From: Leptolyngbya sp. FACHB-8
Lineage (GTDB): Bacteria > Cyanobacteriota > Cyanobacteriia > Elainellales > Elainellaceae
Assembly: GCF_014695575.1 (NCBI RefSeq)
Contig: NZ_JACJOO010000048.1
Location: forward strand, 1-64,000
Direction of reading: 5' to 3'
Length of the DNA stretch: 64,000 bases
Positions 34,782 through 35,291 of this stretch are shown piece after piece. Within the stretch, counting starts at the first letter, position 1, and each line of letters starts with the position of its first letter. A program made the position numbers and the translations under genes. The notes below the pieces were generated by a model. That model saw only the letters and a program-made list of their open reading frames with translations. It searched no databases and had not been told where the DNA came from.

Positions 34782-34853
34782 CAGACCAGATCTTAGTAAA
34801 CCGAACTAGGCTACCAGAGGATAGAGTCTTTAGGAAGGCTAACAGCTCAAATT

Positions 34854-34985
34854 CAGCAATTCTCATTTTGAAATCAGTCCCGAGAACCGCGCGCCAAAGG
34901 CGCGCGGTTCTCGGGCATCAAAGCCAAGAGTTCACGCCCGTAGGGCGTGAACTCTTGGCTTTGATGCCCATACTGAGAATTGCTG
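34854..34985 (+). mobile_element. Three-stem palindromic transposon-like element, copy 1
   Basis: Terminal inverted repeats CAGCAATTCTCA (12 bp) enclose two perfect hairpins: 34879-34915 (17-bp arms, loop AAA) and 34913-34969 (27-bp arms, loop GTA), sharing three bases. The 9-bp repeat GCTCAAATT flanks it exactly (34845-34853 and 34986-34994). The second copy is at 51573. No ORF inside. Confidence 0.93.
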
Positions 34986-35291
34986 GCTCAAATTTATGGT
35001 GTTGGGTGATCTGGCATGAATCTCGCTATCGGCAATGAAACCAGGGCCATAGCTGAGCAACGAGAAGCCTTAAAACATTTGAAGGCTTACAAACTTTCGT
35101 CTGGAAAACCGCTAGGGTGTCATGAAGTCATAATAACCGGGCCGGTATCTCAGCTTGTATTGCCCCTGTCGGCGTCCTGAGACAAATCCTCCTTGCATGG
35201 GAGAATTGAGTGCAGCGTCAGGAGATTTGGGCGAAGCACTAGCTCCATACCCGGCTCAGTCGGTTTTAACTCTTCATGTAAGGATATAGCA
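34986..35291. other. Upstream region of the PPC/TPR protein gene
   Basis: About 305 bases; begins with the right flanking 9-bp repeat of the element above. No gene or RNA seen; the ORF frame that runs through from 35193 is only the open extension of the next gene. Confidence 0.5.

Follow-up and report, generated by a model that had tools for sequence, protein, structure and literature searches.

The active cyanobacterial MITE Nezha is reportedly about 134 bp long, a size similar to that of the element considered here, the two being compared by size alone. Nezha was described by Zhou et al. 2008 (cited in PMC3733652 and PMC10969869), and QMITE, Correia/NEMIS and other bacterial MITEs are short, carry terminal inverted repeats (TIRs) and direct repeats, form strong secondary structure and are related to insertion sequences (IS) (PMC10969869). 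The element described here has all of these traits in common with QMITE, Correia/NEMIS and their like (PMC10969869), whereas it differs from them in its two separate, perfect triloop hairpins whose loops flip, and in a length of 131-133 bp that is kept while the interiors vary by genus. In rRNA genes, loop inversions accompanied by compensatory changes have been attributed to template switching (PMC8794818). The same combination of changes is found here, although the hairpins described in that work lie on RNA genes, while those considered here belong to a multi-copy transposable element of one genome. The element is of a known kind, and no description of its family was found, a text search of papers for the TIR returning unrelated matches only. 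Its unusual features are an apparent orphan state, strong evidence of palindrome rewriting at the DNA level, and a two-hairpin plan that occurs in two unrelated families.

The window, i.e., the whole stretch of 64,000 nucleotides that was analysed, contains two copies of this element. Their features are listed below with those of a related remnant, L109 being a full-length copy of the candidate partner IS.

34845-34853, no strand assigned: left copy of the target duplication GCTCAAATT, 9 bp
34854-34985, plus strand: MITE copy 1, 132 bp, without coding capacity
34854-34865, plus strand: left TIR CAGCAATTCTCA; 34854-34870 are identical to the outermost 17 bp at one end of IS L109
34879-34915, no strand assigned: hairpin 1, perfect 17-bp stem, AAA triloop
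34913-34969, no strand assigned: hairpin 2, perfect 27-bp stem, GTA triloop
34974-34985, minus strand: right TIR; 34968-34985 are identical to the outermost 18 bp at its other end
34986-34994, no strand assigned: right copy of the target duplication GCTCAAATT, 9 bp
51564-51572, no strand assigned: left target duplication AGATTGAGC of copy 2
51573-51705, plus strand: MITE copy 2, 133 bp, TTT triloop in hairpin 1
51706-51714, no strand assigned: right target duplication AGATTGAGC of copy 2
57733-57791, no strand assigned: remnant from a different subfamily of this MITE family (family 1), stem GCCTGAAAATAG..., tail AATTCAAAATGAG

Copy 1 starts with CAGCAATTCTCA and finishes with TGAGAATTGCTG, so that its 12-bp TIRs are perfect, and the first GGG of hairpin 2 is common to hairpin 1, the two stems touching at this point. 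The original prediction had placed a non-autonomous, 132-bp palindromic block with inverted ends and an exact 9-bp duplication at this site, together with a second copy at 51573 flanked on both sides by a different 9-mer. Both placements were confirmed. The inverted ends and the hairpins also stand, but the block is not one palindrome, since short TIRs surround two separate perfect hairpins. In copy 2, a single G inserted near the right end changes the right TIR to TGGAGAATTGCTG. Folded as DNA, copy 1 reaches -64.9 kcal/mol (z = -15.2). No ORF of at least 90 aa lies inside the element, whose interior consists of the two hairpins, and the element has no transposase gene of its own, as had been predicted. 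Both copies are intergenic: judging by the translations, copy 1 lies between a minus-strand dUTPase-like gene and a plus-strand gene, and copy 2 between a minus-strand transporter-like gene and a plus-strand gene.

Throughout the genome (6.93 Mb in the 95 contigs of a draft assembly), the exact TIR was found 263 times (134 + 129), compared to 0 matches for a reversed-pattern control, and up to one mismatch raised these counts to 395 and 19, respectively. A first look gave about 195 element candidates, and the duplication statistics rest on the 79 complete copies that were read out. Of these 79 copies, 70 are flanked by a 9-bp repeat that is perfect (55) or has one mismatch (15), the flanking 9-mers of the other nine differing by more than one mismatch, and the longest exact flanking repeat is exactly 9 bp in 55 copies. 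When flanks of different copies were re-paired as a control, only 15 in 20,000 pairs matched in this way. Thus, the genome-wide check of TIRs and flanking 9-mers that had been proposed for the predicted element bears it out.

Insertion into previously intact sites can also be read inside this genome. At four loci (L014, L020, L072 and L142; stem scores 23-27), a long palindrome becomes complete, or nearly so, once the element and one 9-mer are taken out. Moreover, the insertion at L017 interrupts a member of a repeat family, and an intact member of that family (window 29644-29767) aligns straight over the junction. These restored palindromes and the L017 comparison are internal empty-site tests standing in for orthologous ones: the intergenic DNA of the only same-genus genome is too diverged, and neither the 16 joined flanks nor positions 33300-36700 aligned over a junction. 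Palindromic targets account for 4 of 75 sites versus about 1.5% of window positions, a control that includes coding DNA, so that no preference is claimed. The excess of TIRs, the 9-bp duplications and the palindromes restored on removal together establish that the 132-bp block is a real MITE, which has dispersed to well over 100 sites. Since the same-genus genome contains just three exact TIRs, the burst is lineage-specific.

The large number of copies allows the evolution of the hairpins to be followed. In a gap-free alignment of 58 distinct copies, which are related, so that counts are not probabilities, 98.6% of pair cells are paired, compared to 24-45% in slid controls. Both sides have changed at 25 of the 41 pairs, giving 183 such cells versus 41 in shuffles. 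Where one arm alone is altered, G.T and A.C mismatches are about equally frequent (23 and 26, p = 0.78). The triloops occur in both orientations at similar frequencies (AAA/TTT 20/17, TTC/GAA 13/8 and GTA/TAC 26/15). Few loops are intermediate between the two, and some copies are distinguished from each other by nothing but a flipped loop. On a minimum spanning tree, stem sites show 1.61 changes per site and non-hairpin sites 1.68. The same tree counts 69 compensated pair changes against 60 one-arm changes, as well as 18 exact inversions of the 3-nt loop and 12 inversions with substitution, a scoring in which paired changes and loop flips each count only once and are therefore favoured. A search with the arm of stem 2 over all GTDB species, from which the genome itself may have been left out, found no match.

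These hairpins could be maintained by selection on a transcribed RNA, the MITE acting as a terminator, an insulator or a structured RNA and its compensatory changes reflecting RNA function. The very strong pair conservation and covariation agree with such selection, as does the finding that MITE transcripts fold and influence adjacent genes (reviewed in PMC10969869). However, RNA selection should favour G.U, and the G.T and A.C intermediates are balanced; the stems change at about the same rate as unpaired sites; the loops flip to their reverse complement with neither form strongly preferred; and in the sequence of copy 1 no U-run follows the hairpin stems. Selection on RNA is thus rather unlikely to explain the hairpins. 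The paired arm changes, the equality of G.T and A.C and the loop flips instead favour DNA template switching, and we consider it likely that this process produced both the perfection of the hairpins and the inversion of their loops. A single-hairpin derivative of 89 bp (L080:12012-12100), palindromic throughout with its TIRs included and still flanked by a perfect 9-bp duplication, fits template switching as well. The family amounts to a natural replicate experiment, in which more than 100 near-identical palindromes lie in one genome and arm homogenisation and loop inversion are countable per copy. This makes the model of hairpin evolution by replication template switching directly testable in a bacterium. 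It also warns against taking compensatory changes by themselves as proof of a functional RNA.

The partner of the MITE was traced through its ends. In another genus, a TIR pair 1420 bp apart (L088) encloses a 435-aa ORF, and while L088 itself lacks a duplication, 9-bp duplications flank the full-length IS copies L109, L116, L117 and L119. The same duplication length is found in more distant relatives of the IS, with TIRs such as CAGCAATTCCAAATT, and at 10 of 14 IS copies in Arthrospira sp. PCC 9108, where two further copies have a shifted repeat that by eye appears to be of 10 bp. The transposase family is present in 108 of 390 genomes of the class, its named carriers including Phormidium tenue FACHB-886, Leptolyngbya sp. 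PCC 7375 and Arthrospira sp. PCC 9108, and it extends to some proteobacteria-type genomes at 53-59% identity. The IS has two distinct sub-terminal ends, and copy 1 of the MITE has one of each, identical to those of L109 over 17/17 and 18/18 bp. Outside these ends, blastn found no similarity between the MITE interior and the IS, so the MITE is not a simple internal deletion of it, an origin that is common but not required among MITEs. A 2148-bp TIR pair in another genome (G013, L089) was rejected as an IS, as it contains host-like genes and has no duplication.

The original prediction had named transposases of the IS4, IS5/IS903 and IS1 types, which calls for correction: no IS4, IS5 or IS1 model matched above weak E-values. 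With a representative transposase, the curated models NF049999 and PF13808 gave 16.1 bits (cut-off 170) and 15.4 bits (cut-off 32.3), respectively, and other members gave weak E-values only. The best match to an IS4 model had E 2.4e-5 (NF033591). A sequence search of the PDB gave nothing significant. In contrast to these sequence comparisons, in which IS4 models match weakly, the predicted structure is closest to Tn5/IS50 of the IS4 clan. The best six Foldseek matches were all Tn5 transposase (E 6.8e-8 to 9.9e-7) and only Tn5 transposase structures were matched significantly, pointing to a DDE RNase-H-like fold as in Tn5 on a model of only fair quality (pLDDT 61, low TM of 0.38). Tn5/IS50 likewise makes a 9-bp target duplication. 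In NCBI annotation, a relative on a plasmid of Gloeothece verrucosa PCC 7822 is an 'ISNCY family transposase', ISNCY being a holding class (NCBI/ISfinder) and not a natural family. The ISNCY-labelled cyanobacterial IS has the TIR CAGCAATTCTCA, two distinct sub-terminal sequences (L109) and 9-bp duplications in common with the MITE, and differs from it in encoding a 435-aa transposase within about 1420 bp and in its interior. The partner of the MITE, as modelled here, is thus an IS of about 1420 bp with a 435-aa DDE transposase of Tn5/IS4-like predicted fold. In this way, a large cyanobacterial repeat family is tied to a transposase missed by current curated family models.

The transposase gene that the prediction had suggested looking for, one flanked by these ends, accordingly exists in related genomes, but the genome carrying the MITE retains only a relic. 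Protein and profile searches of this genome found no member of the partner transposase family, and a DNA search recovered one 53-bp IS fragment (C93:10878-10930, 87% identical to the IS), which reads GKNTHYGMKDAALSAFS in the transposase frame. This relic suggests that the helper was probably once present, and the MITE looks orphaned. Less probably, a helper IS present in many copies has collapsed out of the 95-contig draft assembly, although those TIR-bearing contig starts that were read hold MITE sequence and no IS. Contig starts ending at the TIR were for this reason rejected as a collapsed autonomous IS. The PF01609 transposases of the genome were likewise rejected as helpers, none of the seven matches having a paired TIR.

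Y1 transposition makes no target duplication, and the 9-bp duplications therefore already contradict movement of the palindromes, as REP/BIME sequences, by a Y1 (RAYT/IS200-IS605-like) transposase. Such an origin is highly improbable even though the paired hairpins, intergenic, dispersed and in high copy number, resemble REP families (PMC3733652), as the element has TIRs and exact duplications and its ends match a DDE IS. Dispersal by homologous recombination, segmental duplication or assembly artefact is of negligible probability, for although the element interior forms the start of some contigs, the flanks are locus-specific, the repeat is limited exactly by the TIRs with a different 9-mer each time, and the split palindromes close up when the element is removed.

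The best overall explanation, in which we have high confidence, is that of a MITE with the ends of an IS, mobilized in trans by the IS transposase, whose helper was lost and whose hairpins underwent template switching. The 435-aa DDE transposase would have bound both MITE ends in trans and, during a recent burst, inserted the element at cuts staggered by 9 bp. With the helper later lost, the element would be expected not to move at present, short of a renewed arrival of an IS. Replication template switching between the arms (palindrome correction) would hold the hairpins perfect and invert their 3-nt loops.

MITEs with the same ends also occur elsewhere, measuring 131 bp in G012, 133 bp in G013, 132 and 131 bp in G023 and 131 bp in G026, and their interiors have no detectable similarity to the MITE described here or to the IS. 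Two hairpins are also present in the MITEs of G012 and G013, and are absent from those of G023 and G026 that were folded. Some others are 141, 154 or 176 bp long, short or nested, and the near-constant 131-133 bp is an observation, with no proven rule behind it. A further, tentative possibility, to which we give a modest chance, is that the paired triloop hairpins are a convergent functional module, continually rewritten by template switching, whose structure or spacing might be kept because it aids transposition or spares neighbouring genes. This idea arises because two families with unrelated ends and different duplication lengths both have paired hairpins, and because, across five genera, the elements bounded by the ends of this IS are 131-133 bp long despite unrelated interiors.

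The second of these families, unrelated to the first, is represented in the window at 29643-29764 (122 bp), with ends ACCTCAGTTCGGG and the duplication TAATTTA. It has at least 41 genome copies of 96-100% identity, and its plan is again that of two adjacent triloop hairpins with flips. Its duplications are TA-rich and 6-7 bp long, and among 36 candidate pairs, 23 are flanked by exact repeats of 5-8 bp. At L029, a copy of this family has landed inside the end of a family-1 element, and a single-hairpin derivative (L067:12158-12234) is a palindrome end to end or nearly so. The predicted link between the wider palindrome population of the window and mobility is thus supported for part of that population only, through a different element with its own ends and duplications. 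The other palindromes of the window include 19 with stems of at least 11 bp and 12 with triloops.

Several further repeats were observed. A short, decayed, one-hairpin relative of the second family lies at window 40845-40921. Window 57733-57855 is an apparent chimera, in which the family-1 remnant and half a second-family MITE seem to be joined at a common AAAATGAG, as judged by reading. Inverted 106-bp copies, 97% identical, lie at window 1-106 and 15104-15209 and contain a palindrome with a 25-bp stem and a GAA triloop. Finally, a sequence of about 58 bp recurs near the ends of contigs C7, C21, C24, C33, C35, C64, C66, C74, C84 and C87 and in the right flank of L013, a pattern that suggests a further high-copy element absent from the assembly.
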